NCBI GenBank assembly: GCA_035559435.1
Contig: DATMBC010000075.1
Location: forward strand, 1 to 63,692
Direction: 5' to 3'
Source: a bacterium
GTDB taxonomy: Bacteria > Zixibacteria > MSB-5A5 > WJJR01
DNA length: 63,692 nt
The notes under the pieces are model-generated. The model saw only the letters and a program-made list of their open reading frames with translations. It was not told the origin of the DNA and searched no databases. A program made the position numbers and the translations under genes. How positions within the stretch are numbered: the stretch's first letter is position 1; the number at the start of each line of letters is the position of its first letter. Shown here piece by piece: positions 5,919-38,086 of the stretch.

Positions 5919-6350
5919 ATGAGTAAGTTCCGCTCATGGAAAAACGATCAGTCGGGTTTCACGCTGATCGAGTTGGTGATCATCATTGTGGTGCTTGGCA
6001 TTCTGGCGGCCGTGGCCATACCGCGCTACTTCGATATGGTTTCGGAGGCGAAGGAATCGTCGTGCAAGGGAGCGCTGGGCGGTCTGCGTTCGGGCATTTC
6101 GATCTGGTACGCCAACCAGGCGTTGACGACCGGGACGGCGTCGTGGCCGGCGATTGACTCGCTGCGGACCGTCGGCGTGGTGATGGCGGGCGCAATTCCG
6201 CCGAACCCGTACCAGACCAACGCGCCGGATTCGATCGTGACGGGCGTGACCAAGGGCACGATCGTCGGCACGCGCGGCGGCTGGGCCTACAAGCCATCGA
6301 CCGGCGAGATCTGGCCGAACACCAACACCGCCGGCGAGAACAATTTCTAA
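5919..6350 (+). CDS. Type IV pilin/major pseudopilin-like protein
   Basis: A 143-aa prepilin. A short basic leader (MSKFRSWKNDQSG) precedes the prepilin peptidase site G^FTLIELV, with Glu at +5 and a long hydrophobic helix continuing to AVAIPRYFDM. The globular part includes NPYQTNAPDS and ends WPNTNTAGENNF. The ATG at 5919 is chosen over the more upstream frame because GGGGAGGA ends six nucleotides before it and the leader length becomes normal. It has its own leader region and candidate promoter, consistent with the higher dose a major pilin needs. No prepilin peptidase gene lies in the window. Confidence 0.88.
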   Translation: MSKFRSWKNDQSGFTLIELVIIIVVLGILAAVAIPRYFDMVSEAKESSCKGALGGLRSGISIWYANQALTTGTASWPAIDSLRTVGVVMAGAIPPNPYQTNAPDSIVTGVTKGTIVGTRGGWAYKPSTGEIWPNTNTAGENNF

Positions 6351-6357
6351 ATCGCCG

Positions 6358-6900: not shown

Positions 6901-6915
6901 GCAGGTCAGCGACGG

Positions 6916-10309: not shown

Positions 10310-10788
10310 GCGCCTCCCGGCGTCGACAGCTTTTGTTCGCGCTCCTGGTAGGGAGCGCCGTCTTCGGTCTGTACATGAAGCCATGGGAGCGGCGGCGTCC
10401 GACGGTCGGCTCCGTTGCGGATGAGTCCGCTCCGATGGCGACGAATGTAGCCACGATGACGCCGTCGACCGTTCCGGTGCTTGTGGCGGATGTGGGCTGG
10501 CCGGCACGCGATCCATTTGCGCAGCCCGGCGAGTTTCCGACGCGGCGCGACGATCGTCCGAAGGTCGCTGATCGGGCGTCCCTGCCGAGGCCGTCGTTGC
10601 GGCTGCAGGGAATCGTCGGTGTTGACGGAACACGATCCTGTGTGATTGGCGGCGAAGTTCACTGCGTCGGAACCACGGTGCAGGGATGGATGATCACGGA
10701 GATCGCCGCGGATGGAATCTGGTTGTCGCGGGCAGGGCAGCGGCTGTTTGTGCCGCTGAAGTCGTTCGAGCCGTCCGGGGGGAAATGA
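10306..10788 (+). CDS. PilP/GspC-like pilotin-type linker protein
   Basis: A 160-aa protein with a basic start (MSASRRRQ), one membrane helix (LLFALLVGSAVFGLYM), a proline-rich linker containing ARDPFAQPGEFPTRR, and a compact C-terminal domain: LRLQGIVGVDGTRSCVIGGE then GWMITEIAADGIWLSRAGQR. The DPF motif and the LQGIV...I.G pattern are typical of PilP/GspC homology regions that bind the secretin N-domains. It overlaps its upstream neighbour by ATGA and overlaps the secretin start, so it is translated with the secretin it would contact. Confidence 0.75.
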   Translation: MSASRRRQLLFALLVGSAVFGLYMKPWERRRPTVGSVADESAPMATNVATMTPSTVPVLVADVGWPARDPFAQPGEFPTRRDDRPKVADRASLPRPSLRLQGIVGVDGTRSCVIGGEVHCVGTTVQGWMITEIAADGIWLSRAGQRLFVPLKSFEPSGGK

Positions 10789-12074
10789 TGCATCGCCGAT
10801 TGCTGATTCTGATGTGGGCCGCCACAGTGGCGGGGAACGCCGCGATTGCCTGGTCGAAACCGGCCGCGCGCGATGTCTCGTTGCGCTTCTCATCAACGCC
10901 GGTCCCGGTGGTCCTGCGCGCGCTGGCCGAACAGGTCGGATTTGATCTGGTGGTCGGCCCGGGGATCGAGGCCGAGATCGATGTCGACCTCAACGGCGTG
11001 CCCTGGGAGACCGCGCTGGATGCGGTGGCCGCAAGCCATGGCCTCTCGTATCAATGGCGCGACGACGTGCTGGTGGTGCTGCCCGGCGGCGAAGGGAATG
11101 GATTCTTGACGCACCAAGTGGTGACGCTGCGCTATGCGAATCCACTGGCGGTCAAGACCGTGCTCGCGTCAGTCCTGCGCGCGCCGGCGAAGGTGGAACT
11201 GCTGCAGGCGGTGACCACCGGCACGACCGCCGCCACCGCCGCGCCTCCGCCCGTGCTGGTCGTCTCGGAATCGCCGCAGGCGATGCCGGCGCTGCTCGCA
11301 TTGATTGATTCGCTGGACGTCGAGCGCCCGCAGTTTGAAATCGAAGTGAAGTTCGTGGAGACGACGCTGGACGACAAGATGGATGTGGGGTTCAATTGGC
11401 CGACCCGTGTGTCGGCCACGCTCTCCAACCGCGACGCGTCGGGCACCGCCAGCGAGACCAACCAACTCCAGCCCGCCGCCGAGTATGACATCCCCGACGG
11501 CAAGATCTGGAAATTCGGCACGCTGAGCATCGATCAACTCACCGGCTTCCTCGACCTGCTCAAGCAGAACGGCAAGTCGAAACTGTTGTCCGACCCGCGC
11601 GTGACGGTGGTCGAGTCGGAGCGCGCGGTGATGCGGGTGGCCACCACCATTCCGGTGCAGACGTTGAACCGCTTCTCCGAGGGCGGCACCATCCAGGATA
11701 TCGTCAGTTTCCAGGATTTGGATGTCGGGATCACGCTGGCGGTAACGCCCCGGCTCAATGAGAACGGTCTGATGACCTTGGATGTCGAGCCGGTGGTCGA
11801 GGAGATCACCGGATTCACCGGGCCGGCGGATAATCAGCGGCCGATCACATCCAAACGGACCGTCCGCACCACCGTGCGGGTGAGAGACAATGAGACGGTG
11901 GTCATTGGCGGTCTGGTCCGTGAGAACGACATTTCCACCAAGAGCAAACTCTTCCTGCTGGGCGACCTGCCGCTCCTTGGCGGCCTGTTCACCCATTACA
12001 AGACACAGAAGCAAAAGACCGATCTGTTGATTTTCATCACGCCGCGTCTGATCACATCGATGGCCGCCAATTAG
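10785..12074 (+). CDS. gspD: Outer-membrane secretin (PilQ/GspD family)
   Basis: A 429-aa secretin forming the outer-membrane gate of the pilus/secretion machine. A signal peptide ([20 protein letters not shown]) is followed by a secretin/TonB short N-terminal domain ([20 protein letters not shown], about residues 32-100), an N1-like domain, and the C-terminal secretin core with [16 protein letters not shown] and the signature [17 protein letters not shown] near residue 370, ending in [13 protein letters not shown]. It is the last gene of the cluster and ends tail-to-tail, overlapping the GNAT gene by 4 nt. It is short for PilQ, having no AMIN domains. Confidence 0.9.
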
Positions 12075-22267: not shown

Positions 22268-24361
22268 TCACTCCAAGCCGTAATCAAGCACATAATCCGG
22301 CGGCTCGCCGCCGGGCCCCTTCAGGTAGTGCTCCAACCACTGAAGCATCCGCAGGTTGTAGTCGCGCTGGGCGGCGGCCTTGCGATTGCCGTGCGCCTCA
22401 TCGGGATACCACACCAGACGGACCGGCGCCTTCCCGCGCATCGTCAGGTGGGTGTAAAGCTCCAGCGATTGGGAGGGATTGACTCGCGTATCCTTCTTGC
22501 CGTGCAGGATCAACGTCGGCGTCTTTGATCGGTCGGCGTAGTAGATCGGGCTGCGTTCCAGCAGGAATTGCCAGTTCTCCCACGGCGTCTTGCGCAGATG
22601 CACTTCGATCAATTCGTTGGGAATGTCAGAAATCGCGAACTTTGAGACCTGATCGGTGACGCCGACCGACATGACCGCCGCGGCGAAGCGATCGGAGTAG
22701 TAGGTCGCGCACCAGGCCGTGGCGTAGCCGCCGTATGATCCCCCCGTCACTCCCACCTTGGCGCTGTCGACCAGTCCGGCGCCGATCAGGTGGTCGACGC
22801 CGTCGATCAGGTCGTCGAATTCCTTCCCGGCCAAATCGCCGTGGTCCATCTTCGAGAATTCCACTCCCCGCCCGGTGCTGGCCCGGTAGTTCGGGTAGAA
22901 GACCGCCATGCCGCGGGCGGCGGCGACCTGCCCGGCGCTGGCGTAATTGGTCAGCCAGCCATTCTGATAATGCGCCTCCGGACCCCCATGCACCTGCAAG
23001 ATGAGGGGGTAGCGGGTGCCGGGTTGTTCGTTGAGGGGACGGATCAGGATGCCTTCGATCTCCAGGCCATCCCGCGCCGTGTAGCGGACCACTTCCTGCG
23101 GCGCCAGGGCGCAATCGGCCAGCCAAAGGTTGTTGTCGGTCAGACGCACCGGCTCGGAACCGGTGCTCCGGCGGTAGTAGACTTCCGTGGGATGCCGCGG
23201 TGAATTCCCGGTCAGCGCCAGCGCGCCGGTCAGGTCCGCATACGAAAACGACGTGAAGATCGCGCCCTCCTCGGGCCGGCCGATGGGTGTCTGCCGGTCG
23301 GACCAGATCGGCGCGGGAGAGGCATACAGGCGCGACTGGCGTTCATCGAGGCCGATCACGTCGAGATGCGACCAAACGCCCTGATTGACGAGGACGACCA
23401 GCGACTGATTGTCGCGCCAGGCAAAATCGGCGATGTCGCCCTGCAGGTCGGGGATGATGTCGATCGGAACGCCGCCGGAAGACGGCGCGATCATCAACCG
23501 TCCCGCGGCGGGATCGTTGGGATCGGCCCCGGCGATCATGGCCAGATGGCGCCCGTCGGGCGACCAGGCCACCTGTCCGATCTTGCCGGGATTGTCGATT
23601 CTGGCGATCAGCGCGCCGTTTGCGGCATCGATGACGTGCACGCGACGGCGCATGTACTCATCGTCGGCCATGGCGGTCGGCGCCAGACAGAGCGCGATTT
23701 TCCCGCCGTCGGGGCTCCAGTGCGCCTCGGAGGCGCTGCCGGTCAGGTCCAGCCGCTTGGCCAGCGAATCGGGGGCGTCCACCGCGCGCACCCAGACCCG
23801 GACCGGTTCTTTGGACTCGGTATAGACTTCCTGCGTGAAGCCCTTCTTGCGGAGTGACTCGATCGCCTTCGGGGTCGGCTCGGTCGCCAGGAAGAACAGG
23901 CGCTGCCCGGAGGGATCCAGTTCATAATTGGCGATGTCGGCGCCATGTTCGGCGATCTTGCGCGATTCGCCGCCGTCAAGGGGGATCTCATAGAGCGCGC
24001 GTTTCTCATCCTCGCCGCGGCGGGCCAGATAGGTGATCGCGCGGCCATCGGGCGTCCAGCGCACCGTGGTCACATTGACCGCGCCGGTGACATACGGCCG
24101 CGAGCGCCCGTCGGCGTCGACCACATGCAGCTCCTCCCACGCCGCGCCATCCTTCTCGGTGCGCAGATCGCGGGGCACGCGCAGCGTGTAGGCGATCCAT
24201 TTCCCATCGGGGGAGATGACGGCGCTGGTGACGCCGCGCAGGCGGGCCACTTGATCGGGTGTCAGGGGATCGCGCGCGGCGGCGTCACGCGGCCAGACGG
24301 CCAACACGACCAAGGCGACCAGCGTGGCGATCGTCACAACCGGCAGTGGACGACACTTCAT
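22268..24361 (-). CDS. Exported S9-family (prolyl oligopeptidase/acylaminoacyl-peptidase-like) serine peptidase
   Basis: A 697-aa exported peptidase. A signal peptide (MKCRPLPVVTIATLVALVVL, cleaved near AAARD) is followed by a WD40/TolB-like seven-bladed propeller containing repeated SPDGKW and WTPDGR motifs. The C-terminal alpha/beta-hydrolase has Ser542 in GGSYGGY, Asp624 in HGKKDTRVNP and His657 in DEAHGNRK, the full S9C triad. It probably trims oligopeptides in the periplasm. The ATG at 24361 is preceded by CCGGAGGCTGCC; the frame reaching further upstream has no such site. It is divergent from the cytochrome locus and 66 nt ahead of the efflux operon. Confidence 0.93.
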   Translation of the reverse strand: MKCRPLPVVTIATLVALVVLAVWPRDAAARDPLTPDQVARLRGVTSAVISPDGKWIAYTLRVPRDLRTEKDGAAWEELHVVDADGRSRPYVTGAVNVTTVRWTPDGRAITYLARRGEDEKRALYEIPLDGGESRKIAEHGADIANYELDPSGQRLFFLATEPTPKAIESLRKKGFTQEVYTESKEPVRVWVRAVDAPDSLAKRLDLTGSASEAHWSPDGGKIALCLAPTAMADDEYMRRRVHVIDAANGALIARIDNPGKIGQVAWSPDGRHLAMIAGADPNDPAAGRLMIAPSSGGVPIDIIPDLQGDIADFAWRDNQSLVVLVNQGVWSHLDVIGLDERQSRLYASPAPIWSDRQTPIGRPEEGAIFTSFSYADLTGALALTGNSPRHPTEVYYRRSTGSEPVRLTDNNLWLADCALAPQEVVRYTARDGLEIEGILIRPLNEQPGTRYPLILQVHGGPEAHYQNGWLTNYASAGQVAAARGMAVFYPNYRASTGRGVEFSKMDHGDLAGKEFDDLIDGVDHLIGAGLVDSAKVGVTGGSYGGYATAWCATYYSDRFAAAVMSVGVTDQVSKFAISDIPNELIEVHLRKTPWENWQFLLERSPIYYADRSKTPTLILHGKKDTRVNPSQSLELYTHLTMRGKAPVRLVWYPDEAHGNRKAAAQRDYNLRMLQWLEHYLKGPGGEPPDYVLDYGLE

Positions 24362-24491
24362 GGCAGCCTCCGGAGATTGCGGCGCGGTGCGCAATGAACC
24401 GGACCCGCATACGGGTATTTCCGCGCCGCCGGGGCCTACGATAGCAACACCGGGCCGCGTTGTCGACGGCGTTGTCAGAAATCTGGCAAAA

Positions 24492-24516
24492 CTGTCAAAA
24501 GTCGCGGCGAATTCGG
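24492..24516 (+). promoter_or_regulatory. CTGTCAAAA-type motif, copy 1, upstream of the 42-haem cytochrome
   Basis: CTGTCAAAA (24492-24500) is followed by TCGCG, then GAAT, then CGG. The same order occurs upstream of ccmF at 35739. It is 108 nt before the cytochrome start and lies in the region divergent from the S9 peptidase. This could be a regulator site for the electron-transfer locus. Confidence 0.35.
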
Positions 24517-24608
24517 ACAAGAACCTGTCACTATGTGCCGTCGCTCCCTTGCGTTTATCCCCTATCCCATATCTTGTTTGCGTCACCGGAGCGTACTCCG
24601 GTCGGAGG

Positions 24609-27600
24609 ATGAGAACCCCTATGCCCCATCGGCGTGGCGTGACAATGGTGTGGTTGCTGCTTTGGGCGGCGGCCCTGATGCTGACCGTGGCTTCGCGCGC
24701 GGCCCTCGGCGCGGAGAAGACTTGCTACGACTGCCACGAGGAGGCAAAGACCCGCTTCAAGAAGAAAGTTCAGCACGAACCGGTCGCCAAAGGCGATTGC
24801 GAAGATTGCCATCTGCGCCACGGGTTCTCGAATATGCTGATCCTCAAAAAGGACGGCAAAGAACTCTGCTTGGAATGCCACACCGATTTCGACACCACCG
24901 TGGCATCCGGCGCGCATGCGCACCCGGCGTTCGCGCAGGGAATGTGCAACACCTGCCATGAGCCGCACGCCTCCGATCAAAAGGGACTGATCCGCCACCT
25001 CGACGGCGATGTAGTCTGCCTCGCCTGCCATAAGCAATTGGCGGACACGTCATCGGCCTCGCGGCAGCATCCGCCGTTTGCCGAACGCGCCTGCGGGCAG
25101 TGCCACGTGCCCCACACCGGTCCGTTGGACAAGCTCCTCAACGCCGATCAGCGCTCGCAGTGCGGGGTCTGCCACGACAATGGGGGCGTTCAGCGCGCGC
25201 ATGACGCCAAGGGGATCAACCCGGCGGGGCTGGAATGCTCGGGCTGCCACGATCCGCATCGCTCGTCCAAGCCCGCGCTGATCGGCGAGCATGTGCATCC
25301 GCCAGTGGCCGACGGCATGTGCGACGCCTGCCACACCGGGGAACCTGTGCCGCCGCAGTCCATCGGCGCGGCCGATTCCACCTGGAACGGGTGCTCCGCC
25401 TGCCATGAGAACATCGGCGCCAAACTGGAACTGGCCACGCCGCATGCGCCGGCCGCCATGGGCGAATGCTACCAATGTCACTCGGCGCATCAATCCAGTC
25501 GCCCGGGGCTTTTGAAGGATGGCGTGGCGCTGCTGTGCCAGACCTGCCATGAGGACATGTCGGCGCCGGTGCTGGAAAAGACGGTCAGCATTCACCAGCC
25601 GGTGCTGGCGGGAAACTGCAACGTCTGCCACGACGCGCACGGCTCCGCGGAAAAATCGCTGTTGATCAAACCCGGCGAGGCGCTCTGCCGCGATTGCCAC
25701 ACGGACGCGAAATTCACCGCGTCGCATCATCTGCAGGCCGCCGACCTCGGCTGCCTGGACTGCCATTCGCCGCATGCGAGCATGCAGCCGGCGCTGTTGC
25801 GCGAAACGCCGCAAGCCACCTGCGTCAAATGCCATGATCCGCGCCTGTCGCCGACGATGGTGGCGCACGAGCCGGTCAAGCAGGGCGATTGCGCCATCTG
25901 TCACGACCCGCACGCCGGCGTCGGCGCCAAGTCATTGCAGCAGGAGCCGCCGATGCTCTGCTTCAATTGCCATCAGAACATCGCGCGTTTTGTCACCGCC
26001 GAACACAAGCATTCGGTGGTGGAGGACTGCGGCACCTGTCACGGCGCGCACGAAGCGCCGCACAAGGGACTACTGTTGAAGCCCGGGTCCGGGGTCTGCG
26101 CCGATTGCCATGATGTCGCACGCGACCCGGCGGCCAAGTCGGTGCACAAACCCTTCGATCAGGGGGATTGCGGCGGTTGCCACAATCCGCACGGCAGCCA
26201 GTTTGCCAACCTCCTGGGCCCGCGCCGGCAGATGCTGAGCACGCCGGTCGGACAGATATTCAACTACCCCAAACTGGACAGCACGTCCGTCTCTCTCTGC
26301 CGGACCTGTCACGCCGACGAAATCGATCTGTGGCAGACCAAGACCGTGCAGCACCTGCCGGCGCGCAACGGCGAGTGCTCCGCCTGCCACTCGGCCCATC
26401 AGTCGCCCAATGGCAATCTGCTGACGAAGCCGACCTACGAGCTCTGTCAGGGGTGCCACGATCCCGCCGCCATTCCGGCCGAGCCGCATCGGGGGATCAA
26501 TCTGGCCAGCGCCGATTGCGCCCAATGCCATGACCCGCACGCTTCAGAGCGCAAGGGGCTGATCAAGTCGAACACGCACGTGCCGTTCGGCGATGGCTCC
26601 TGCGATGCCTGCCACACCGGCCCGGGGAGCGTCACGCTCACGGCCGCGCAGCCCGATCTCTGCCTGACCTGTCATGAGGACCTGCAGACGCAACTGGACA
26701 TGACCGTCGCGCATGCGCTGGCGGCAGGCGGCGAGTGCACGGCCTGCCACAGCGCACACTCGTCGAACGAGCCGCATCTGTTGACGGGCAAACTGTCGTC
26801 GGTCTGCGGATCATGCCATGATGCCACCCCCGGCAAGATCCGCCACCGTCCCTATGCGGAAGGCGACTGCCGGCGCTGCCATGAGCCGCATGGTTCCGCG
26901 CAGCCCGGCCTGCTGGTGAAAAACGCGAACGGTCTCTGCCTGGATTGTCACACCACATTGGCGGAACGTATGCAGAACGAGACACGTCACGGCGCCATTG
27001 CCGAAGGGTGCCTGGCCTGCCATGCCGGCCATGCGTCGGACAACGCCTCGCTCCTGCAGTTGCCGCCGTCGGAGCTCTGCGGCAAGTGCCATGACACCAA
27101 GACCGCCGCCTGGCGCGCGGTGCATGTGGTGCCGGGCGTGGCGGCCACCGGCGGCGACTGCATGTCCTGCCACGATCCGCACACCACGGCCGCCCGAGGC
27201 ATGGCGATGCTCAAGCGCTCGCAGCATCCCCCCTTTGAAGCGCGCGAGTGCGGCGCCTGCCACGAAGCCGGCGCGACCGAAGTCCGTGGCGACCGTCAGC
27301 TGTGCGGGCAATGCCACGACGAGACGATCGCGGCCATCGACGGCATGCCGGTGGTGCACGCGGCCATGGCCGACAGCGCCGCCTGTATGACCTGCCACTC
27401 GCCGCACGTGGGCGACACCCCCGCGCTGCTGCGCAAGACCGGGTTCTCCGTCTGCACCAACTGCCACGAAACGATCAACCTCGCCGATTCGGTGGTGCAC
27501 AACCCGGCGCGCGAGGACTGCGCGATATGCCACACCCCGCATGGCGGCAGCGACGCGCGGCTGTTGTCCGAGACGGACATCATGGCGTTGTGCATGCGCT

Positions 27601-27797
27601 GCCACGAAGACGCGCCCAAGACGCACTTCCATGCGATGGGCGAACAGACCAAGAATCCCGACAACCGCGGCAAGATTGTCTGCACCAGCTGCCACTCACC
27701 CCACAATTCCGCGCAAAAAGCGTTGCTTCTCGGCGACGCGATGCGTGGTTTGTGCGTGCGCTGCCATGATCCGTCGGCATCGCACAGTGGAGGATGA
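24609..27797 (+). CDS. Giant multihaem c-type cytochrome with 42 CxxCH motifs
   Basis: A 1062-aa exported cytochrome. After a signal peptide (helix MVWLLLWAAALMLTVASRAA) I count 42 CxxCH haem-binding motifs from CYDCH to CVRCH, about one per 25 residues. Many are in the paired-CxxCH arrangement with following HxPH or HAS/HGS segments (for example CNTCHEPHAS and CSACHSAHQS). No membrane anchor or other domain is visible. Repeats of about 45-50 residues suggest growth by duplication of a two-haem unit. It would be a periplasmic or surface electron conduit. GGAGG at 24604-24608 abuts the ATG at 24609; the in-frame ATG at 24621 has a more usual spacing and may be the true start. It overlaps the next gene's region by a few nucleotides. 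Confidence 0.93.
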   Translation: MRTPMPHRRGVTMVWLLLWAAALMLTVASRAALGAEKTCYDCHEEAKTRFKKKVQHEPVAKGDCEDCHLRHGFSNMLILKKDGKELCLECHTDFDTTVASGAHAHPAFAQGMCNTCHEPHASDQKGLIRHLDGDVVCLACHKQLADTSSASRQHPPFAERACGQCHVPHTGPLDKLLNADQRSQCGVCHDNGGVQRAHDAKGINPAGLECSGCHDPHRSSKPALIGEHVHPPVADGMCDACHTGEPVPPQSIGAADSTWNGCSACHENIGAKLELATPHAPAAMGECYQCHSAHQSSRPGLLKDGVALLCQTCHEDMSAPVLEKTVSIHQPVLAGNCNVCHDAHGSAEKSLLIKPGEALCRDCHTDAKFTASHHLQAADLGCLDCHSPHASMQPALLRETPQATCVKCHDPRLSPTMVAHEPVKQGDCAICHDPHAGVGAKSLQQEPPMLCFNCHQNIARFVTAEHKHSVVEDCGTCHGAHEAPHKGLLLKPGSGVCADCHDVARDPAAKSVHKPFDQGDCGGCHNPHGSQFANLLGPRRQMLSTPVGQIFNYPKLDSTSVSLCRTCHADEIDLWQTKTVQHLPARNGECSACHSAHQSPNGNLLTKPTYELCQGCHDPAAIPAEPHRGINLASADCAQCHDPHASERKGLIKSNTHVPFGDGSCDACHTGPGSVTLTAAQPDLCLTCHEDLQTQLDMTVAHALAAGGECTACHSAHSSNEPHLLTGKLSSVCGSCHDATPGKIRHRPYAEGDCRRCHEPHGSAQPGLLVKNANGLCLDCHTTLAERMQNETRHGAIAEGCLACHAGHASDNASLLQLPPSELCGKCHDTKTAAWRAVHVVPGVAATGGDCMSCHDPHTTAARGMAMLKRSQHPPFEARECGACHEAGATEVRGDRQLCGQCHDETIAAIDGMPVVHAAMADSAACMTCHSPHVGDTPALLRKTGFSVCTNCHETINLADSVVHNPAREDCAICHTPHGGSDARLLSETDIMALCMRCHEDAPKTHFHAMGEQTKNPDNRGKIVCTSCHSPHNSAQKALLLGDAMRGLCVRCHDPSASHSGG

Positions 27798-27799
27798 CA

Positions 27800-28942
27800 A
27801 TGAGACGAGGTTGGGGACGAGAACTGTCGTGTGCGCTGGCGGTGGGGACCGCGGCGCTGGCGTTGACGTTCTCGCATGAGGCCCGCTCGCAGGCGCCGCT
27901 TGATCCGCCGGGGAATCTGCCTTACGACGGGGCGCATCTGTCGCCGAGCGACGGAGTGCTGCGCGATCCGGCGCTGCCGCGCGGCGACTGCGGCCAATGC
28001 CACATCACGCACGCGGAGACGCAGCCGCAGGCGCAGAACCTGTTTGCGCCGAACAACAACATGCTTTGCTACTCGACCAGCGGCATCGGCGGCTGTCATA
28101 TCAACCGCCCCGACGGCGGCGCCGCCGGCTACCCGGCGCAGGAGCAGGACCGGTTCCCCGACCAGCATCCCTACCACGGCTACTTTGAGGCCGGCGCGGG
28201 AGGCGTGCGCGTGCCGGGGGTCAACAACCGCACCCGATGGCCGGGCAAACTGATCTGGGAGAACACCGCCTACTCGGCGCATTACGCGAGCCCGTCTATG
28301 CCGCGTCTGGACAACACCGGCCGGGGCTCATGCCTCAATTGCCACGATCCCCACAACGGCGCGACGCCGTATGATCAACTCAAGCGCCGTTACGGTCCAA
28401 TCGCCGGTTCGGGCACCAACGCCGCCCCGGCCGAATATGCCCTGTGCCTGGACTGTCACGGTCCCAGCGGACCCTCCGGGCTTACGCCCGAATCGCGCCG
28501 GATCGCCGACTTCTACAGCCGTGTCAGTTCCGGTTCCTCACGCGCCGGCCATGCGATTTCCTACACCCGCGGCGCGGTCAAGCGGGGCGATCGGCTGCCC
28601 TGCTACGATTGCCACAACCCGCATGGCTCAGCCGGCAGCGACGGGCAGCATCCCAACGGTTATCTCATCTCCGATCAACGACCCGGTTGGTATGGCCTGA
28701 CCGACATCAGGAACGACGCGGCGCAGGTGCGGCGTTTCTGCACCGGCTGCCATGCCTATCCGGATCAACCGGGCAGCGGGGGAACGGTCGAAGGCATCCG
28801 GCCGAAGGCGCTGCCGAATGAATACCCGCATCGCTCGTACGAGACCAAGCATTGCTACGACTGTCACGGGCGCGACTACTCCAGCCCCGGCGGATTCAAC
28901 GTGCACAATCCCTCCTCGGGAGAACACGGCGGAGGCGATTGA
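27800..28942 (+). CDS. Six-haem (possibly seven) exported c-type cytochrome
   Basis: A 380-aa protein with signal peptide (ELSCALAVGTAALALTFSHE) and six canonical CxxCH motifs: CGQCH, CLNCH, CLDCH, CYDCH, CTGCH and CYDCH. In addition, CYSTSGIGGCH is a C-X8-C-H arrangement in the place where a haem might be expected. It has the paired-CxxCH style HDPHNG and HNPHGS. GGAGG (27789-27793) lies six nucleotides before the ATG at 27800, which is chosen over the ATG at 27794 that overlaps the previous stop. Its place between the giant cytochrome and a beta-barrel gene suits the periplasmic partner of a porin-cytochrome conduit. Confidence 0.9.
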   Translation: MRRGWGRELSCALAVGTAALALTFSHEARSQAPLDPPGNLPYDGAHLSPSDGVLRDPALPRGDCGQCHITHAETQPQAQNLFAPNNNMLCYSTSGIGGCHINRPDGGAAGYPAQEQDRFPDQHPYHGYFEAGAGGVRVPGVNNRTRWPGKLIWENTAYSAHYASPSMPRLDNTGRGSCLNCHDPHNGATPYDQLKRRYGPIAGSGTNAAPAEYALCLDCHGPSGPSGLTPESRRIADFYSRVSSGSSRAGHAISYTRGAVKRGDRLPCYDCHNPHGSAGSDGQHPNGYLISDQRPGWYGLTDIRNDAAQVRRFCTGCHAYPDQPGSGGTVEGIRPKALPNEYPHRSYETKHCYDCHGRDYSSPGGFNVHNPSSGEHGGGD

Positions 28943-28967
28943 TACGCGGTCCCGGTGTCACCGATGG

Positions 28968-30581
28968 TTGGCGGGTGTGCCGGGGCGTGCCCTGGGAACG
29001 ATCGCTCTGGTGTGGGCGGCCGCATGCCCCGCGGCGGCGCAGGAAATCGGCGGATCGATGAAACTCGACTACCAGAGCACATCCGCCGGCGCGGAGGCGG
29101 ATGCCAATGAATCGGTCGCGCAGCAATACTATCTGCGGCTGACCGACCGTCTCTTTGTCAAGAACCTGTTGGTGTTCACCGGCAACTTCTACTACCGCAC
29201 CGGCAACGCGGTTCAGCCGGTGGATTTTCGCCCGCGCTATGACCTGCAGCTCTCCAGCGCCGGCTATGGCGCGCGGGTCGGGTATGAGCCGTACACACTG
29301 CGTCGGGGCGGCGCGGCGCCCGATGAACAAAGCCGCCGCTGGCGCGCCAACGTGCAGCTGTCTCCGGCGAAGTGGCCGCGCCTGGCCTACGACATGTCGC
29401 GCTTCCGGACGGAAACGGCCGATCGGCCCGGCGGACGCGACAACTGGGATTCGTACATGATGAACTGGCAGGGAGGATCGCGAGTGCTGGCTACCACTTA
29501 CTCCCGCCAGCGCCGGCACGCGCGCGACACGCTTTCGGAAACGGTCGAATCCTACCGCGCGATCGCCTCGATCGATCTGCCGCTGCCCGGCCAGGGGCGG
29601 CTCGGGCTCGGGTACAACTTCGACCGCACCTGGAATCGCCGCGTCGGCCAGGTCACGACCGCGGTCAATCAGCATGTGCCGACCGCCAATCTGTCCAGCC
29701 AGCCCGCCCGTTGGGTCTCGCTGACCGGTCAATACAGCGGCCGCTACATCCGCCGCGACGCGGGCGGCAACCCCACAGACAACACCGACGATCAACTCGC
29801 GACCGGTGTGCTCACTCTGATGCCCACCGCGCGCTGGTCGATTGGCGTGCTCCGCTACTTCGAACGGACCGAAGAACGGCAGGGCACCGAGTCCCGCAAC
29901 ACCGACTACTGGCAAGTGCGCGCCAACACCGACCGGATCTTCTTCCGCCGGATCAACAGCCAGTTCACCGTCTATCGCATCGCCTACCAGGGGGCGGGCA
30001 AGGGTGTTCGCTTTTCGGACGCCTACTTCGCGGCGCTGCGCGGCCGTCCGCATCGGCACGCCGAGCTGTCCACCGAGGTCAGTTTGGCCGACCGGCACGG
30101 ACTGCAGGCGGTGCGCTACGCGGTCAGCGGCACCTCCTATTTGCGTCTGTATCCGACACACGGCTCGCAGGCGCAGGTGTCCTACAATGCCATCGCCGAG
30201 GGCAAGCGGCTCTCGGAGTTTGACATCAGCGAGGAGAGCGTCTCCGGCTCAATGCAGTACTCGCCGGATGCCAGACTGAGCTTCACCGGAACCAGCACTC
30301 TGCGCCGCAACCGGCTCCTGGAGTCGTCGTGGACGATGATCTGGAGTGTGGCGACGACCTATCGCCTGGCATCGGTGGCCAACGCCAGCGCGTACTACGC
30401 CAGCCGCGAGACCGCCCGGACCGCCGGGGCCACCGCCCCCGCGGAGGCGGCCTCTTCCTGGATCCTGACGTTCGATTACTGGCTGAGCCCATCAACGACC
30501 ATCTCAGTGAACTACACATGGCGCGGCAGCGGCCGTGACACACATGACATCTGGGGCGCGGGATTCTCGGCCCAATTCTGA
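28968..30581 (+). CDS. Outer-membrane beta-barrel, putative porin of a porin-cytochrome conduit
   Basis: About 537 aa. A hydrophobic signal (ALGTIALVWAAACPAAAQ^E) is followed by regular amphipathic beta strands through the whole length, such as YYLRLTDRLFVKNLLVFTGN and WVSLTGQYSGRYIRRDAG, ending in aromatic-rich WGAGFSAQF with a terminal Phe as a BAM signal. The size fits a 20-plus-strand MtrB/PcoB-like barrel, though sequence similarity to MtrB is not evident and there is no CxxC near the N-terminus. The start is uncertain: no ATG precedes the signal, and TTG at 28968 or GTG at 28977 are the candidates. It follows the six-haem cytochrome by 25 nt. Confidence 0.78.
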   Translation: MAGVPGRALGTIALVWAAACPAAAQEIGGSMKLDYQSTSAGAEADANESVAQQYYLRLTDRLFVKNLLVFTGNFYYRTGNAVQPVDFRPRYDLQLSSAGYGARVGYEPYTLRRGGAAPDEQSRRWRANVQLSPAKWPRLAYDMSRFRTETADRPGGRDNWDSYMMNWQGGSRVLATTYSRQRRHARDTLSETVESYRAIASIDLPLPGQGRLGLGYNFDRTWNRRVGQVTTAVNQHVPTANLSSQPARWVSLTGQYSGRYIRRDAGGNPTDNTDDQLATGVLTLMPTARWSIGVLRYFERTEERQGTESRNTDYWQVRANTDRIFFRRINSQFTVYRIAYQGAGKGVRFSDAYFAALRGRPHRHAELSTEVSLADRHGLQAVRYAVSGTSYLRLYPTHGSQAQVSYNAIAEGKRLSEFDISEESVSGSMQYSPDARLSFTGTSTLRRNRLLESSWTMIWSVATTYRLASVANASAYYASRETARTAGATAPAEAASSWILTFDYWLSPSTTISVNYTWRGSGRDTHDIWGAGFSAQF

Positions 30582-30600
30582 CCATGCGCGAGGTGAACTC

Positions 30601-31173
30601 ATGAGATTTGCCAATGTCCTTGTCATCGCATCCCTGACGGCGCTGCTGGTGTCGTGTTCCGGCACGCGCTCCTATGTCAATCCCGACGCCGATATGGCGT
30701 ACTACCGCCGTGTCGGCGTGGCCGCCTTCGAATCTCTGGCCGAAGATTCGCGGGCCGGGCAGAAGTTGCAGCGCATCTTTCTGACCGAATTGTTGAAGAA
30801 GGGCAAATTCGACCTGGTGCCGCAGGGTCAGTTCGACAAGGTGGAACTGGAAGTGCGCAACAAGCAGGGGCTGGCTTTTCCGGCGGCGTTGGATTCGGCG
30901 GCGCTGGCTGCCATCGCGCAGCAAACCGGCGCGCAGGGGATCATCATCGGCACCGTGCGCGACTACCGGATGGAACGGGTCGGGCAGGAGGAATTCCCGA
31001 TGGTGGCGTTCTCGCTGAAGTTAATCGATGCCCCCACCGGGCGGGTGGTCTGGGATGTGTCGGTCGGCGAACGCGGCGGGCCGAAACTGCCGGTGATTTC
31101 GCTGGGCGAGACGCACACGTTGAGCGAACTGGCCACCAAACTCTGCCGCCGGGCGCTGGGGACGTTGCCATGA
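30601..31173 (+). CDS. Lipoprotein, CsgG/GNA1162-like outer-membrane assembly family
   Basis: A 190-aa lipoprotein: MRFANVLVIASLTALLVSC^S is a clear signal peptidase II site. The mature part reads VGVAAFESLAEDSRAGQKLQ, then GAQGIIIGTVRDYRMERVGQ and MVAFSLKLIDAPTGRVVWDV, the alternating pattern of the CsgG/DUF799-like ABD fold. CsgG itself secretes curli; relatives are periplasmic-facing lipoproteins of unknown role. GAGGTGAACTC precedes the ATG. It lies just after the beta-barrel gene and overlaps the next gene by ATGA, so a role in assembling or exporting surface cytochromes is plausible but inferred. Confidence 0.8.
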   Translation: MRFANVLVIASLTALLVSCSGTRSYVNPDADMAYYRRVGVAAFESLAEDSRAGQKLQRIFLTELLKKGKFDLVPQGQFDKVELEVRNKQGLAFPAALDSAALAAIAQQTGAQGIIIGTVRDYRMERVGQEEFPMVAFSLKLIDAPTGRVVWDVSVGERGGPKLPVISLGETHTLSELATKLCRRALGTLP

Positions 31174-31961
31174 CACGGTGTGCACTGGCCGCGCTGGCGC
31201 TTGTTGTCGCGCTGTATGGCGCCCTCCGGGCCGAGCCGCTGACGGTGACTTGTCCGGATGGCCGGGAAGTGCTCTGCCGGCTCCTGGATGACCTCGACGC
31301 TTGCGGGCGTCCGCAGGTCGCCGGCGGATGCGGGGGCGTGTCGCTCCTGTACCGGGACTCGGTGCTGGCGGTCGATTCGCTGGTGATTCGCATCTGGTCG
31401 GTGGCGGACACCTGCGGGGAGGCGCAGGTCTGCTTCCAGCCGCTGACACTTCTGCCCGGACGACCCCGACTCGCCGTCTTGCCGCTTGAAAACCTCTCGA
31501 CGGCCGAGGAAGGGGCGCGGGTATTGCAGCGGCTTCTGGAGGAGGCGCTGGCTGGTCTCGAGCCGGCCGAGCTCATCGCGCCGGCGAAGGTCGACGATGC
31601 GGTGATGCGCGGACGAGTGCGGCAGCCGGTGTTGATGGATGATGAACAGCGGGCGCGGCTAAGCAGGGCGCTGGACGCGCAATATCTGGTGGTCGGCTCG
31701 CTGCTTAACTACGAAATCTACCAGGACCAGTACTCCGGGCCGATCCCGATGATCAGCTGTGTGTTGCAGCTTCAGCGGGCCTCCGACGGCCGCACCTTGT
31801 GGTCCGAGTCGCTGCATGCGGTCGGCAACGATGGGGAATGGCTGTTTGCGCTGGGGGTGGAGCATGACATCACCCGTCTGGGCCGCAATCTGGCGCGCAA
31901 AGCGGCCCGCGCGCTGGCAAAGCACATCGCCGATGCCCCCTGCGCGCCGCGCGCCGATTAG
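31170..31961 (+). CDS. Exported CsgG-like/FlgT-like protein of unknown function
   Basis: A 263-aa exported protein with signal peptide (MTRCALAALALVVALYGALR) and a short cysteine-containing N-terminal part (CPDGREVLC, CGRPQVAGGCGG, DTCGEAQVC). A CsgG-like domain follows: RLAVLPLENLSTAEEGARVL, LDAQYLVVGSLLNYEIYQD and CVLQLQRASDGRTLWSESLH. This fold is shared with the preceding lipoprotein, so the two may act as a pair at the outer membrane. Six N-terminal cysteines could form disulphides. The ATG overlaps the preceding TGA. Confidence 0.72.
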   Translation: MTRCALAALALVVALYGALRAEPLTVTCPDGREVLCRLLDDLDACGRPQVAGGCGGVSLLYRDSVLAVDSLVIRIWSVADTCGEAQVCFQPLTLLPGRPRLAVLPLENLSTAEEGARVLQRLLEEALAGLEPAELIAPAKVDDAVMRGRVRQPVLMDDEQRARLSRALDAQYLVVGSLLNYEIYQDQYSGPIPMISCVLQLQRASDGRTLWSESLHAVGNDGEWLFALGVEHDITRLGRNLARKAARALAKHIADAPCAPRAD

Positions 31962-32295: not shown

Positions 32296-33381
32296 ATGTG
32301 CCACATACGAACCAGCGCTGTATCCCCAAGAGATTGTGAAAATAATCGCAAAGTAAATATATATGTGACGCTTTTTGTCCTGATCGTCGCGGCCGTGATT
32401 CCCGGCGCATCCGTGCGTGCGCAAGTCTCGCCGTGGGAGGTCACGGCCATTCTCACCGAGTCTGCCAGCGGGAAACCGTATCGCGCCATCGTCGGACTCT
32501 TCGCCGATCCGGTGACGGGCGAGTTGTACGTCCTCGATGGCGGGCGCAGAATGATCGACGTGCTCGATTCGACCGGTCTGCCGCGCTACTCGTTTGTCCA
32601 CTGGATCACCGACCCGCAGACGGGGCGTCGCGTGCCGGGTGAACCGCACGCGTTGGTGGTTTCGGCCGAAGGCGAGATTTTCATTACCGACTACTATTCC
32701 CGAATGATCGATGTGCTCAACATCCGCGGCGAGCGGATCGACCAGATCGATGTGCTTGAGGCCATCGGCTGGCATGATCCCTCGCTCCGTCCCGAGAAGA
32801 TCGCGCTGGACGGAGAGGGGCGCCTCTACGTGAGCATCGCCGGCTCACGCACCGGGGTGGCGCGTTGCCTGACGGATGGGTCATCGTGCGAACTTTTGGT
32901 CAACACCACAGCGGAAGGAGTGCAGGCGATAACGGCGATGAGTGTTGCTCCGGATGGTCGATTCGCGGTCTTGGACTACCGCGGCGAACCGGCGGTGCGC
33001 GTCTACGATCCCAGCGGCCGGCTGATTGTGGCCTTTGCCGGGCACGATGTCGCGGAGGGGGATTTGTCCTATCCCGCGTCGTTCCTGTTTGCCGCTGACG
33101 GGTCGTATTGGATCGCGGACGCGCTTCGTCACGCGGTCAAGCACTATTCGGACAAGGGTGAATTCATCGAATACGTCGGGGGATACGGCGCCGGACCTGG
33201 CAGCGTCCGTTATCCCTCCGGAGTCACCGGGGATGGCGTCGGACGGCTGGTCGTGGCCGAGCGGGTCGGTGCTCGGATTCAGGAGTATGTCCTTCCCGGC
33301 GCGGTCTATGCCGCCCCCGCTCAACCCACACCCGCGTCCGGCCCAGGAACCGTCGTGGTGGACCCGGAAAGCGTTGAATGA
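32296..33381 (+). CDS. Exported NHL-repeat (six-bladed beta-propeller) protein
   Basis: A 361-aa protein with an N-terminal hydrophobic segment (VTLFVLIVAAVIPGASVRA^Q) and NHL-type repeats: GLFADPVTGELYVLDGGRRM, ALVVSAEGEIFITDYYSRMI, IALDGEGRLYVSIAGS, SVAPDGRFAVLDYRGEP, FLFAADGSYWIADALRHAVK and GDGVGRLVVAERVGARIQEY. It ends in a Pro-rich tail. The N-terminus before the hydrophobic stretch is odd for a signal peptide, so the ATG at 32296 may be wrong and a GTG just before the hydrophobic part is possible. NHL propellers near multihaem cytochrome genes probably serve as extracellular or periplasmic interaction scaffolds. The stop is followed within 60 nt by an OmcS-like cytochrome. Confidence 0.82.
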   Translation: MCHIRTSAVSPRDCENNRKVNIYVTLFVLIVAAVIPGASVRAQVSPWEVTAILTESASGKPYRAIVGLFADPVTGELYVLDGGRRMIDVLDSTGLPRYSFVHWITDPQTGRRVPGEPHALVVSAEGEIFITDYYSRMIDVLNIRGERIDQIDVLEAIGWHDPSLRPEKIALDGEGRLYVSIAGSRTGVARCLTDGSSCELLVNTTAEGVQAITAMSVAPDGRFAVLDYRGEPAVRVYDPSGRLIVAFAGHDVAEGDLSYPASFLFAADGSYWIADALRHAVKHYSDKGEFIEYVGGYGAGPGSVRYPSGVTGDGVGRLVVAERVGARIQEYVLPGAVYAAPAQPTPASGPGTVVVDPESVE

Positions 33382-33437: not shown

Positions 33438-34454
33438 ATGAAGCGTACCTTCGTGCTGATGGTCGCGCTCGTTCTCATCGTGCCTGTCGCAGTCATGGCC
33501 GGTGATTATCACAAGGGCGTGACCCTCAACTGTTCCGAGTGCCATGTAATGCATGGCTCTCAGCAGCACGGCTACAACGCCGACGGCAGCGGGGTGTTCA
33601 CCCCGATCGGCGGCGCCCCGCCGTACCAGTACCTGCTCCGCAATGAGATCAACGCGCTCTGCCTGACCTGCCATAACAATCAGACCTTCGCGCCTGATGT
33701 CCTGGAGGCCAACGGCGGAACGGCCCCGACCACCGGTCGCCAAGGCGGCGCATTGAACATGAACAACACGGCGCCGTATTTCGCGTCCACCGGCCACACC
33801 TTGGGATCGCATGACGTGGCCCCGGGCGGCACGTTCAGCAACCCCCATGGACTCGAGTGCGTGGACTGCCACCAGCCGCACGGCCGGAGCAGCGGCACCA
33901 ACACCAACCCCTATCGCAATCTGGGCAACTACGACGCCACCCACACGGTGTACACGGCGTACATGACCTATGCGATTGGGACCAACGATCTGACCAAGGA
34001 CGTCTTCGAGCGCACCGCCAGTGGTTCGGATCACTATGACATCGGCAATGTCGACTTCAACGAACCGAACGTCACCGGCTCACGCTATGGCGACTTCTGC
34101 AAGAGCTGTCACACGAACTTCCATGGCAACTCGACCGACGCCCACATGGCCAACGCCGACGGCTGGCTGCGTCACCCGGCGGCCGAAGCGAATATCAGCA
34201 TCTCGACGTTCGGCGCCCGTCTCTATCGTCCGAAGGTTATGAGCGCGACCGGCGATTGGGGCACGCAGGGCACGGCCTTCACCACCGGCCCGACCGACCT
34301 GACCCCGTCCTGCTTCTCGTGCCACCGGGCGCATGGCAACACCAACAGCTTTGGCATAATCCTTCAGGATGGTCTGTCGACCATCGGTGAAGACGGCACC
34401 GCGGGCGCGACGATGCGCACCACCTGCCGCACCTGCCATCGCCAGGGCTCGTAA
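33438..34454 (+). CDS. Hexahaem c-type cytochrome, OmcS-like (candidate nanowire subunit)
   Basis: A 338-aa exported cytochrome: signal peptide MKRTFVLMVALVLIVPVAVM (cleaved near VMAG^D), preceded by GGGAGG. The six haem motifs are CSECHVMHG, CLTCHNN, CVDCHQPHGR, FCKSCHTNFHG with LRHPAA downstream, CFSCHRAHGN and CRTCH. This order matches what I recall of Geobacter OmcS: CxxCHTMH, CLNCH, CSSCHDPHGK, WCANCHTDIH...LRHPAG, CLSCHRAHAS, CNKCH. OmcS polymerises into extracellular filaments. The resemblance is in motif order and flanking residues; filament formation is inferred. Length is about 90 residues shorter than OmcS. Confidence 0.88.
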   Translation: MKRTFVLMVALVLIVPVAVMAGDYHKGVTLNCSECHVMHGSQQHGYNADGSGVFTPIGGAPPYQYLLRNEINALCLTCHNNQTFAPDVLEANGGTAPTTGRQGGALNMNNTAPYFASTGHTLGSHDVAPGGTFSNPHGLECVDCHQPHGRSSGTNTNPYRNLGNYDATHTVYTAYMTYAIGTNDLTKDVFERTASGSDHYDIGNVDFNEPNVTGSRYGDFCKSCHTNFHGNSTDAHMANADGWLRHPAAEANISISTFGARLYRPKVMSATGDWGTQGTAFTTGPTDLTPSCFSCHRAHGNTNSFGIILQDGLSTIGEDGTAGATMRTTCRTCHRQGS

Positions 34455-34582: not shown

Positions 34583-35677
34583 GTGAGACCCATACTGTCA
34601 ATCGTACCGATCCTGATGAGCATCGCGTCCGTGGCGATTGCGGCGAGCGGTCCTTCGCCTCTGCGTCCGATCCATTTGCGCACGGCCCCGCGGTCCCCGA
34701 TGGCGGCCGGCGCCCAGGCTCTGGACACTTATCACAACGGCGTCACGTTGCGTTGCGCTGATTGCCATGTCATGCATCAGTCGAAACAACATCGACTCAA
34801 CGATGACCCAGTCAATGATCCGTTTGGGGGATATCCCCAGAATTTTGCCGGGGGAGCGCATTTGCTGAAGACGGCGGATCCGATCGACCTGTGCCTGACA
34901 TGCCACGACAACCAGCCCGGGATCCCCGATGTCGTCGGCACGGACATCAATGGCCTGGCGGCCCGTTCGGCGGGCTACTTCGCTGACATCGGAGAACGCA
35001 ATCCCCGCGGGCATTCGTTGGAGCGCGGTCTGAAGACGGAAGATTACGAACTTTGCCTCCGTTGCCATTTCGGCGGGGAACTGGCCACCGCCTCGGTCAC
35101 CTGCATCGACTGCCACAATCCGCACGGCAACGGCCGCCCGCGCAATCTGCAGTGGGCGTCCTACCCGGGCGGCGAGCCGCAGTTCGGGCTTCTGCAATCG
35201 GGGCCGGCCGCGGGTCTGGCGCGTTACGAGGAGGCGAATGTCGCCTACGGGACCGCCAATTCCGACCTGTTGCGCGAAGTCTCCAACATGTGCCTGGATT
35301 GCCACCATGTCTACAGCGGCGAGTCCTACATCGATCCCGACGGCGACGGATGGCACAATCGCCATCCTTCCTACGACAGCGAGCGCGGGTCGACCAACTC
35401 CATCGCTCAGGGCGCGGCGCGGGGCACTACCGACCCGTCGCACTGGGAAGCGGGGTCAGGCGCCGGATTCAACGGCACGTCGCGGCTGAAGTGGGTTGGC
35501 ATCAACGCCACCGACTTTGTCACGGCCACGCAGGTCCAGGCGACGACCAACGGCGTGTTCTGCCTGAGCTGCCACCAGGCCCACGGGAATGGCCACGCGT
35601 TTGCCCTCCGTTGGGATCCGACGACCACTCCGGATGGCCTCGGTTGCGAGCAGTGTCATAATCGGACCGAATTGTAG
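34583..35677 (+). CDS. Heptahaem c-type cytochrome, paralogue of the OmcS-like protein
   Basis: A 364-aa exported cytochrome with seven motifs: CADCHVMHQ, CLTCHDN, CLRCH, CIDCHNPHGN, CLDCHHVYSG with NRHPSY downstream, CLSCHQAHGN and CEQCH. The opening YHNGVTLRCADCHVMH mirrors YHKGVTLNCSECHVMH of the gene before it, so they are paralogues; here an additional haem sits before the PHG motif. The start is GTG (34583) six nucleotides after CGAGGA. A signal helix (ILSIVPILMSIASVAIA) is present. It may be a second filament type or a connector to the outer-membrane conduit. Confidence 0.87.
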   Translation: MRPILSIVPILMSIASVAIAASGPSPLRPIHLRTAPRSPMAAGAQALDTYHNGVTLRCADCHVMHQSKQHRLNDDPVNDPFGGYPQNFAGGAHLLKTADPIDLCLTCHDNQPGIPDVVGTDINGLAARSAGYFADIGERNPRGHSLERGLKTEDYELCLRCHFGGELATASVTCIDCHNPHGNGRPRNLQWASYPGGEPQFGLLQSGPAAGLARYEEANVAYGTANSDLLREVSNMCLDCHHVYSGESYIDPDGDGWHNRHPSYDSERGSTNSIAQGAARGTTDPSHWEAGSGAGFNGTSRLKWVGINATDFVTATQVQATTNGVFCLSCHQAHGNGHAFALRWDPTTTPDGLGCEQCHNRTEL

Positions 35678-35827: not shown

Positions 35828-38086
35828 ATGATGAATGTTCAAAACATGACGCTGTGGCTGGCCGGACTGACGATGTTGGCGGCCATCGTGCTGTACGCGC
35901 GCGCACGCGATGCGCGCATGCTGCGCCTGGCCGACCGGATGGTCTACGCGCATCTGGGTCTGTTGTCGGCGGCGCTGGTCCTGCTCCTGGTCGCCTTTCT
36001 GGCGGACCAGTTCCAGTTCGCCTACGTCGCGCACAATTCCTCGCTGGCCCAGGAGCTCTTCTATAAGATCTCCGCGGTCTGGGCGGGGCAGGAGGGGACA
36101 TTCCTGCTCTGGGCCTGGATGGTCGCCGTCATGGCCGTCTTCGTCATCCGCCGCGGCGGCGAATATCATCGCTGGGCGATGGTCTATGTGCTCGCGACCC
36201 AGGCGTTCCTCATGCTCCTCCTGTTTGTCCGCTCGCCGTTCGCGCCGGTGGAGGGCGGCGTTCCGGCCGACGGCAGCGGGATGAACCCGCTTCTGAAGGA
36301 TCCGTGGATGGTGATCCATCCGCCGATCGTCTTCATCGGGTATGCCGCGTTCACCATTCCCTTTGCCTACGTCATCGCCGCGCTAACGATGCGGTCGTTC
36401 AGGTCGCTGGCGACCACAATTTTCCCGTGGGTGGCCTTTGCGACCGTGACGTTGGGCGCCGGCATCTTCATTGGCGGTTTCTGGGCTTACAAGGTGCTGG
36501 GGTGGGGAGGGTACTGGGGCTGGGATCCGGTGGAGAACGCTTCGCTGGTGCCGTGGCTGACCGGCATGGCGCTTCTGCACGCCCTCATTCTCTATCGCAC
36601 CAAGGGGCAGCTCCCCAAGACCACAATGTGGCTGGCCTGTGTGTCGTACATCCTGGTGGTGTATGGCACCTTCCTGACGCGGTCCGGCGTGCTGTCCGAT
36701 TTTTCGGTGCACTCGTTCGCCGATGCCGGTATCAACTCGTACCTGTCGGCCTTTCTGTTCATCGTCGCGCACATCTCCTTCATCATGCTGCTGATGCGCG
36801 GCCGCAAGGTGACCGGCCCGCCCATTCCCAAAGCGATCAGTTCGCGGGAGTTCGGGCTGGTGACCGGCGTGCTGCTTTTCTGCCTGGCCGCGGCGTTTGT
36901 GATCCTCGGGACGTCGTCACCGATTCTCACTGGCCTGGTCGGGAATCCCTCGAATGTGGCGATGAGTTACTACAACCAGGTCTCGTTGCCGATCGGCATC
37001 CTCATCGCGCTGGTGCTGGGATTTTCGCCCTTCCTGCTGGTCGAACGCACCCAGTGGGGCGAACTCTTCCGGACGGTCATCTGGTCGATCATCGCTGCCA
37101 CGGTGGTGACCGTTGGGGCGATTTTATTGACGACACTGGCGCCGTTGCACGCGGTTTTGATTTTCGTCTCGGTGGCGGCGCTGGCGTCCAACGGCCTGGC
37201 GATCTGGCGGTTTTCGCACGGGCATCCATTGCGGATGGCCGGGCACCTGACCCATCTCGGATTCGCGGTCATGCTGCTTGGGATCATCGCGTCGGCCGCG
37301 TATTCGGGCGAGGAGACGCTGACTTTGCGCTCGGGCGAAACGGGTGAATCCTACGGCACGCAGATTCAATTTCTCCGCGCGGTCAAAGGCGAGACCACCG
37401 AAGACGGTTATCTCGATCTTCGCCTCGTGCGCGGAAACGACACGACCGTGGCGCATCCGAAGCTCTACATCTCCGAGTATTCACAGCAAGTGATGCGCAC
37501 CCCGCACATCGAGAAGGGGTTCCTTTCCGATCTCTACATCGCGCCGCTGGACCATCAGGCCTCAGCCCACGCCGGCCACGGTCTGACGCTGACCAAGGGT
37601 CAGACCTCCTCCTATGGCGGCTGGAATCTGAGCTTTGTCCGCTATGACATGTCGCAGCATGGCGAGGGCGGCGCCATGAAGGTTGGCGCGGTCATCAACG
37701 CCGAACAGAATGGCACATCCTACGAGATCATCCCGTCGATGGAGTCCACGGTGTCGGGCAAGCACTCCCCGATCGTCCGGATCCCCGGCACGGAGATGGG
37801 GCTCTCGCTGGTCGGGATGTCGGTGGAGCAGCGATCGGTCACGCTGGAGATCGATGACCCCACGACGGGGCAGATGGCCGGCGGCGAGTCGCTGGTTCTG
37901 TCGGTGTCGCGCAAACCGTTGACCAGTTTGGTCTGGGCCGGCTGCATCCTGATCACCCTCGGTACCGGCTTTTCCTACTGGCGCCGTCGGGTCGAGGAGA
38001 AACTCGTGATCGCGCACGATCATCCCGCTTCCGCGTTCCCCGGCCTCCCCAAAGGGGGCCGTCTGAAGACCACGCTGCCGCATTAG
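35828..38086 (+). CDS. ccmF: Cytochrome c haem lyase subunit CcmF
   Basis: A 752-aa polytopic protein with the CcmF/CcsA tryptophan-rich haem-handling motif WGGYWGWDPVENAS starting at Trp226, preceded by HPPIVFIGYAAFTIPFAYVI and followed by about a dozen further membrane helices and a C-terminal periplasmic domain (about 500-690) with a closing helix. CcmF ligates haem to CxxCH apoproteins in System I maturation. GGGAGGAG lies before the ATG. No ccmA-E, ccmG or ccmH gene is in the window, so this copy may be dedicated to the adjacent cytochromes, or the rest may be elsewhere. Confidence 0.94.
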   Translation: MMNVQNMTLWLAGLTMLAAIVLYARARDARMLRLADRMVYAHLGLLSAALVLLLVAFLADQFQFAYVAHNSSLAQELFYKISAVWAGQEGTFLLWAWMVAVMAVFVIRRGGEYHRWAMVYVLATQAFLMLLLFVRSPFAPVEGGVPADGSGMNPLLKDPWMVIHPPIVFIGYAAFTIPFAYVIAALTMRSFRSLATTIFPWVAFATVTLGAGIFIGGFWAYKVLGWGGYWGWDPVENASLVPWLTGMALLHALILYRTKGQLPKTTMWLACVSYILVVYGTFLTRSGVLSDFSVHSFADAGINSYLSAFLFIVAHISFIMLLMRGRKVTGPPIPKAISSREFGLVTGVLLFCLAAAFVILGTSSPILTGLVGNPSNVAMSYYNQVSLPIGILIALVLGFSPFLLVERTQWGELFRTVIWSIIAATVVTVGAILLTTLAPLHAVLIFVSVAALASNGLAIWRFSHGHPLRMAGHLTHLGFAVMLLGIIASAAYSGEETLTLRSGETGESYGTQIQFLRAVKGETTEDGYLDLRLVRGNDTTVAHPKLYISEYSQQVMRTPHIEKGFLSDLYIAPLDHQASAHAGHGLTLTKGQTSSYGGWNLSFVRYDMSQHGEGGAMKVGAVINAEQNGTSYEIIPSMESTVSGKHSPIVRIPGTEMGLSLVGMSVEQRSVTLEIDDPTTGQMAGGESLVLSVSRKPLTSLVWAGCILITLGTGFSYWRRRVEEKLVIAHDHPASAFPGLPKGGRLKTTLPH

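Follow-up and report, generated by a model that had tools for sequence, protein, structure and literature searches.

We analyzed a stretch of 63,692 nucleotides (the window; contig DATMBC010000075.1 of assembly GCA_035559435.1) from a bacterium of the Zixibacteria; neighbouring genomes of its GTDB phylum bear Candidatus Zixibacteria names. The window encodes two adjacent multihaem cytochromes of the OmcS type, which we call A and B. We found that B belongs to an old clade of seven-haem proteins in which one extra haem motif always comes with one extra histidine. An earlier note on this DNA had credited B with seven haems, one of them inserted, and the CXXCH motifs agree: there are six in A (CSECH32, CLTCH75, CVDCH141, CKSCH221, CFSCH292, and CRTCH330) and seven in B (CADCH58, CLTCH104, CLRCH158, CIDCH174, CLDCH237, CLSCH327, and CEQCH355). 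The two proteins share an opening stretch (YHNGVTLRCADCHVMH in B and YHKGVTLNCSECHVMH in A) and a closing stretch (CLSCHQAHGN in B and CFSCHRAHGN in A), both of which the note had pointed out. It had also described a CLRCH motif added ahead of the haem with the PHG sequence, and CLRCH158 does lie directly before CIDCHNPHG.

OmcS of Geobacter sulfurreducens (PDB 6EF8/6NEF) is the best match for both families in a profile search of the PDB (E = 1.5e-7 for A and E = 4.4e-6 for B), in line with the note's description of the two proteins as OmcS-like. (Single-sequence searches of the PDB with A or B gave no match to OmcS; the family profiles did match it.) We also compared structures, using an AlphaFold model of B that was built from 30 natural sequences (predicted local distance difference test score, or pLDDT, of 71; predicted template modelling score of 0.71). 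The corresponding model of A had a pLDDT of 38 and was left out of the analysis. With VIA-align, OmcS (6ef8_A) ranked first against the model of B (Z = 12.1 over 250 residues, with a root-mean-square deviation of 4.0), and the match spans residues 49-362 of the model and 2-407 of OmcS. The next rows had Z of 5.0 and 4.2. Plain Foldseek with the same model gave no significant match, just weak rows for OmcE and Mtr. By the profiles and the model, A and B belong to the OmcS superfamily and B has the OmcS fold.

B resembles OmcS in its six shared haem positions, in six distal histidines, and in a near-identical N-terminal motif, [FY]H..G...CxxCHxMH. (Our OmcS reference sequence is identical to 6ef8 across all 407 residues.) Relative to OmcS, B adds a seventh haem, His242, and usually an N-terminal arm, and it has fewer residues per haem (343 amino acids for seven haems, versus 407 for six). 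B is not OmcS itself: it sits in a separate clade and has seven CXXCH motifs, so it is not a hexahaem protein. The likeness to OmcE (PDB:7TFS) is weaker (profile E = 1.6e-4, structural Z = 4.2); OmcE has four haems and little sequence similarity to B. OmcZ (PDB:7LQ5) was absent from B's matches in the profile and fold searches.

A and B are clearly homologous by sequence, as paralogues. BLASTP aligns them over 319 columns at 30% identity (E = 3e-21), and hhalign aligns the profiles of the two families with a probability of 100% (E = 2.5e-39). The note had proposed that its reading would be refuted if A and B were no closer to each other than to unrelated multihaem cytochromes. For B and the other six-haem cytochrome of the locus (27794-28942), the alignment reaches only E = 1e-3, so this refutation does not apply.

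The note had further proposed that B was duplicated from the gene before it, and here the phylogeny disagrees. A tree of 62 proteins gives one clade each for OmcS, A, B, and a third six-haem paralogue, C, and all of the seven-haem proteins fall in a single clade (support 100/98). (Sparsely filled columns were dropped before the tree was built, and these should include the segment with the added haem.) Going by the records of the metagenome-assembled genomes, the seven-haem clade includes members from Zixibacteria, Krumholzibacteriota, Planctomycetota, Eisenbacteria, Armatimonadota, Poribacteria, and Spirochaetota, or about seven phyla. The best tree pairs B with C (75/44), and a tree with A and B as sisters is not rejected (p = 0.20, approximately unbiased test). 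A quick tree with wider sampling places six-haem proteins from Armatimonadota as the closest sisters of B (SH-aLRT 80). A, B, and C thus fall into three distinct clades, all of them old. Because the seven-haem clade extends across phyla, the haem must have been gained long ago, and B did not arise by copying the adjoining gene; we rejected a recent tandem duplication on this ground. All seven haem motifs are kept in the complete relatives of B, and B is under purifying selection (NG86 dN/dS, the ratio of nonsynonymous to synonymous rates, is 0.05-0.20, with dS saturated in most pairs).

We examined the histidines in 75 sequences, comprising 18 B proteins and 57 other members of the superfamily. 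The six haem motifs in OmcS order align in all 75, and their histidines are invariant across all groups. So are six further histidines: His2, His16, His110, His147, His257, and His335 of OmcS, which correspond to His51, His65, His144, His181, His261, and His334 of B. We take OmcS His16 to be the ligand that one subunit provides for haem 5 of its neighbour. The 12 axial ligands in OmcS are all histidines; 11 come from the haems' own subunit, and one (for haem 5) comes from the neighbour (PMC6584659). Because of this, the six haems and the six universal free histidines balance, and we infer that these histidines are the distal ligands of the six OmcS-order haems. (We found no residue-level table of the OmcS axial ligands in the open literature that we searched, and this list comes from conservation and counting.)

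The only invariant additions in B are two histidines, His162 and His242, each present in 18 of 18 B proteins and in none of the 57 others. His162 belongs to the extra haem motif, which lies between OmcS haems 2 and 3, where the other proteins have no haem motif. His242 is free and immediately follows a haem-binding histidine. In tetrahaem cytochromes c3, the second histidine of CxxCHH ligates a neighbouring haem. By elimination, we predict that His242 is the ligand of the extra haem. If so, then the extra haem lies beside the haem that is held by His241, and thus next to the chain. Since the haem and the histidine were gained on one branch, their co-occurrence is a single event and not a replicated correlation.

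Another distinctive part of B is an N-terminal arm. In 16 B proteins, 26-39 residues separate the apparent signal peptide from the opening [YFW]H motif; the mature forms of OmcS, A, and C begin within about three residues of it. (Signal peptides were judged by eye. An extracellular location of B would fit its apparent signal peptide and the context of the locus.) The arm is poorly conserved save for one histidine, which is present in 16 of 16 armed members and mostly follows a hydrophobic residue. In the model of the B monomer, the arm has low pLDDT. So although the note was right that B has an additional haem, its description of a single insertion is incomplete: every member also has the invariant His242, and most have the arm.

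The distribution of B suggests that it depends on A. Among 132 genomes of Zixibacteria, A is present in 21 and B in 10 (plus one fragment at a contig edge), and all 10 genomes with B have A (hypergeometric P = 1.1e-9, ignoring kinship). That is, within Zixibacteria A often occurs without B, but B never occurs without A. In the other phyla, all 10 of the genomes with B encode another six-haem protein of the OmcS type, sometimes on another contig.

The region between A and B contains a GC-rich stem-loop. A strong stem follows A in 19 of 23 loci (perfect-stem score, p of about 0.025 or less), or in 20 of 23 if we count the window itself, at p = 0.035. The stem differs in sequence between loci, occurs with or without B, and, where it precedes B, usually lacks a following T run. 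Such a stem may make A exceed B, by partial termination or by stabilizing the 3' end, or it may simply be the old terminator of A. Transcripts of omcS in Geobacter occur both with omcT and without it (PMC10599522). Separately, two genomes of Zixibacteria have a second A-type gene elsewhere (L057 and L058; G129 and G130), with no stem-loop after it.

The apparent dependence of B on A and the hairpin after A favour an accessory role. Our preferred explanation, to which we give somewhat less than an even chance, is that B is an accessory subunit of A-type (OmcS-type) filaments, at a junction, an end (as a cap), or a branch. In such a filament, six haems of B would make up the chain seen in OmcS, with one universal distal histidine for each. 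The seventh (C158/C161/H162), closed by His242 beside the haem at His241, would be a side or branch haem that does not lengthen the chain, and it might provide an additional point for electrons to enter or exit. (In OmcZ, too, one haem lies outside the linear chain; PMC9473688.) B would be made in smaller amounts than A and would be placed at the ends, junctions, or branches of the filaments, near the outer-membrane conduit. The arm and His65 would reach into the neighbouring subunit, with the arm as an additional contact. A more specific proposal is that B is the first recognized dedicated junction or branch subunit of OmcS-type nanowires, which co-assembles with six-haem subunits, has an off-chain haem ligated by His242, and uses the arm to supply a second inter-subunit ligand. 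We consider this full combination to be unlikely.

Several observations weigh against an accessory role. First, B is encoded away from a six-haem partner in Spirochaetota, Eisenbacteria, and some Planctomycetota. Second, the arm is missing from the B proteins of Poribacteria and Spirochaetota; because these armless proteins branch first, the arm arose after the haem. Third, loci that lack B also have the hairpin after A, so the hairpin may just be A's terminator. Fourth, the OmcS-type interface residues that B keeps are common to the whole superfamily and do not discriminate; they are compatible with either a connector or a second filament, the two roles that the note had suggested. In particular, the equivalent of His16 is present in B as in all of the relatives, and its use in trans by B is a prediction. 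Finally, polymerization of A or B and contact between them are proposals here, and the position of the extra haem is predicted from conserved histidines.

Could B instead form its own seven-haem homopolymeric nanowire, as a second type of filament for other conditions? B does have the OmcS fold from end to end and retains the six universal distal histidines, including the equivalent of His16. It is old, it is under purifying selection, and in several phyla it does not adjoin A. Furthermore, OmcS, OmcE, and OmcZ filaments coexist in Geobacter (PMC12954529). But every genome in which we found B also encodes another OmcS-type protein, and of the pair in Zixibacteria, B is the one that can be done without. 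Also, the arm alters the N-terminal end, which contacts the neighbouring subunit in OmcS. A separate filament is possible but on the doubtful side.

We think it rather unlikely that B is a non-polymerizing electron relay or terminal reductase, extracellular or at the surface, that keeps the OmcS fold and has its interface capped by the arm. The conserved histidine of the arm could replace the neighbour's ligand, but the armless B proteins of Poribacteria and Spirochaetota keep the same core histidines, which implies that capping by the arm is not general to the clade. The idea that B is just a duplicate of A, decaying or neutral, with no role of its own is very improbable: although a relative of the same genus (G127) lacks it, B forms one clade across phyla, its complete members keep seven haems and seven core distal histidines, its dN/dS is well below 1, and its placement after A is conserved.

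To our knowledge, the cytochrome nanowires described so far have been regarded as homopolymers, and their initiation, termination, branching, and connection to the outer membrane are open questions. If we return to the accessory role, then His162, His242, and the histidine of the arm are concrete residues for asking whether filaments have specialized subunits. OmcS-type paralogues beside a filament gene were already known, from omcS/omcT/GSU2501 of Geobacter (PMC12977616) and from Oet-type cassettes (PMC10553843). OmcT and GSU2501, from the omcS operon, are like B in being divergent OmcS-type paralogues beside the main filament gene, with unknown function (PMC12977616), but they are hexahaem proteins and a seventh haem is unreported for them. 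The open literature that we searched, which was covered in part, yielded no account of a seven-haem OmcS-type protein. With the seven-haem clade, the OmcS superfamily reaches into several phyla that have been little studied, and searches restricted to hexahaem proteins would miss the members of this clade.

The surrounding genes (Table 1) read as an outer-surface electron-transfer locus, with a putative barrel. In the window, a 42-haem cytochrome is followed by a six-haem cytochrome, the putative barrel, two lipoprotein-like genes, an NHL-repeat protein, A, B, and a CcmF-like haem lyase. Many Zixibacteria repeat this order, from the 42-haem gene through a six- or twelve-haem cytochrome, the barrel, a lipoprotein, and the NHL-repeat protein to A, and B where it is present. 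The barrel had no match in the PDB. CcmF is widespread in the phylum and is adjacent in close relatives only, and we did not take it as evidence of function. The arrangement resembles the OetABI-type porin-cytochrome cassettes of syntrophic sulfate reducers (OmcX, OmcS-like, and Apc2a), which also combine a conduit and several filament-type cytochromes in one locus (PMC10553843). Those cassettes are from a different phylum, and the likeness seen here is one of gene arrangement.

Table 1. Features of the window around A and B (residue numbers refer to the B precursor).
Feature	Position	Strand	Remarks
42-haem cytochrome	24255..27797	+	stop-to-stop frame
Six-haem cytochrome directly before the putative barrel	27794..28942	+	not OmcS type
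Putative outer-membrane barrel (porin of a porin-cytochrome conduit)	28923..30581	+	NCBIfam GSU2204, E = 0.006 (weak); position conserved (synteny)
LpoB/CsgG-like lipoprotein	30535..31173	+	conserved neighbour
Second lipoprotein-like gene	31167..31961	+	conserved; no Pfam match
NHL-repeat protein	32350..33381	+	conserved neighbour upstream of A
A, six-haem OmcS-type cytochrome	33438..34454	+	upstream of B; likely its main filament-type partner
GC-rich stem-loop	34494..34523	+	after the stop codon of A, before B
B, probably secreted seven-haem OmcS-type cytochrome	34583..35677	+	GTG start; precursor of 364 amino acids, mature form of ~343 (signal peptide judged by eye)
N-terminal arm of B, residues 22-49	34646..34729	+	between signal peptide and YH opening; conserved His31, codon 34673-34675
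His65 of B (CxxCHxMH)	34775..34777	+	equivalent of OmcS His16; invariant, 75/75
Extra haem motif, C158-L-R-C161-H162	35054..35068	+	18/18 B; no haem motif there in 57 others
His242 (CLDCH-H, CxxCHH)	35306..35308	+	18/18 B, 0/57 others; predicted distal ligand of the extra haem
CcmF-like haem lyase	35828..38086	+	after B; neighbour of A/B genes only in close relatives

Several Zixibacteria relatives have a cytochrome with 41-42 CXXCH motifs at the matching place in the locus, and in several (L066, L073, L074, and L081) the cytochrome that precedes the barrel has grown from six haems to 12. C was not found in the genome of the window. In many Zixibacteria it is near the 42-haem gene (L012, L013, L014, L015, L016, L017, L066, L068, L070, L071, L080, and L081), and in distant relatives it is placed after that gene. 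Other Zixibacteria encode proteins of the canonical OmcS clade (L022, L024-L031, L054, and L056). Elsewhere in the window, positions 2743-12074 hold a cluster that resembles type II secretion or type IV pilus systems (T2SSE, T2SSF, a prepilin-like protein, and a secretin).
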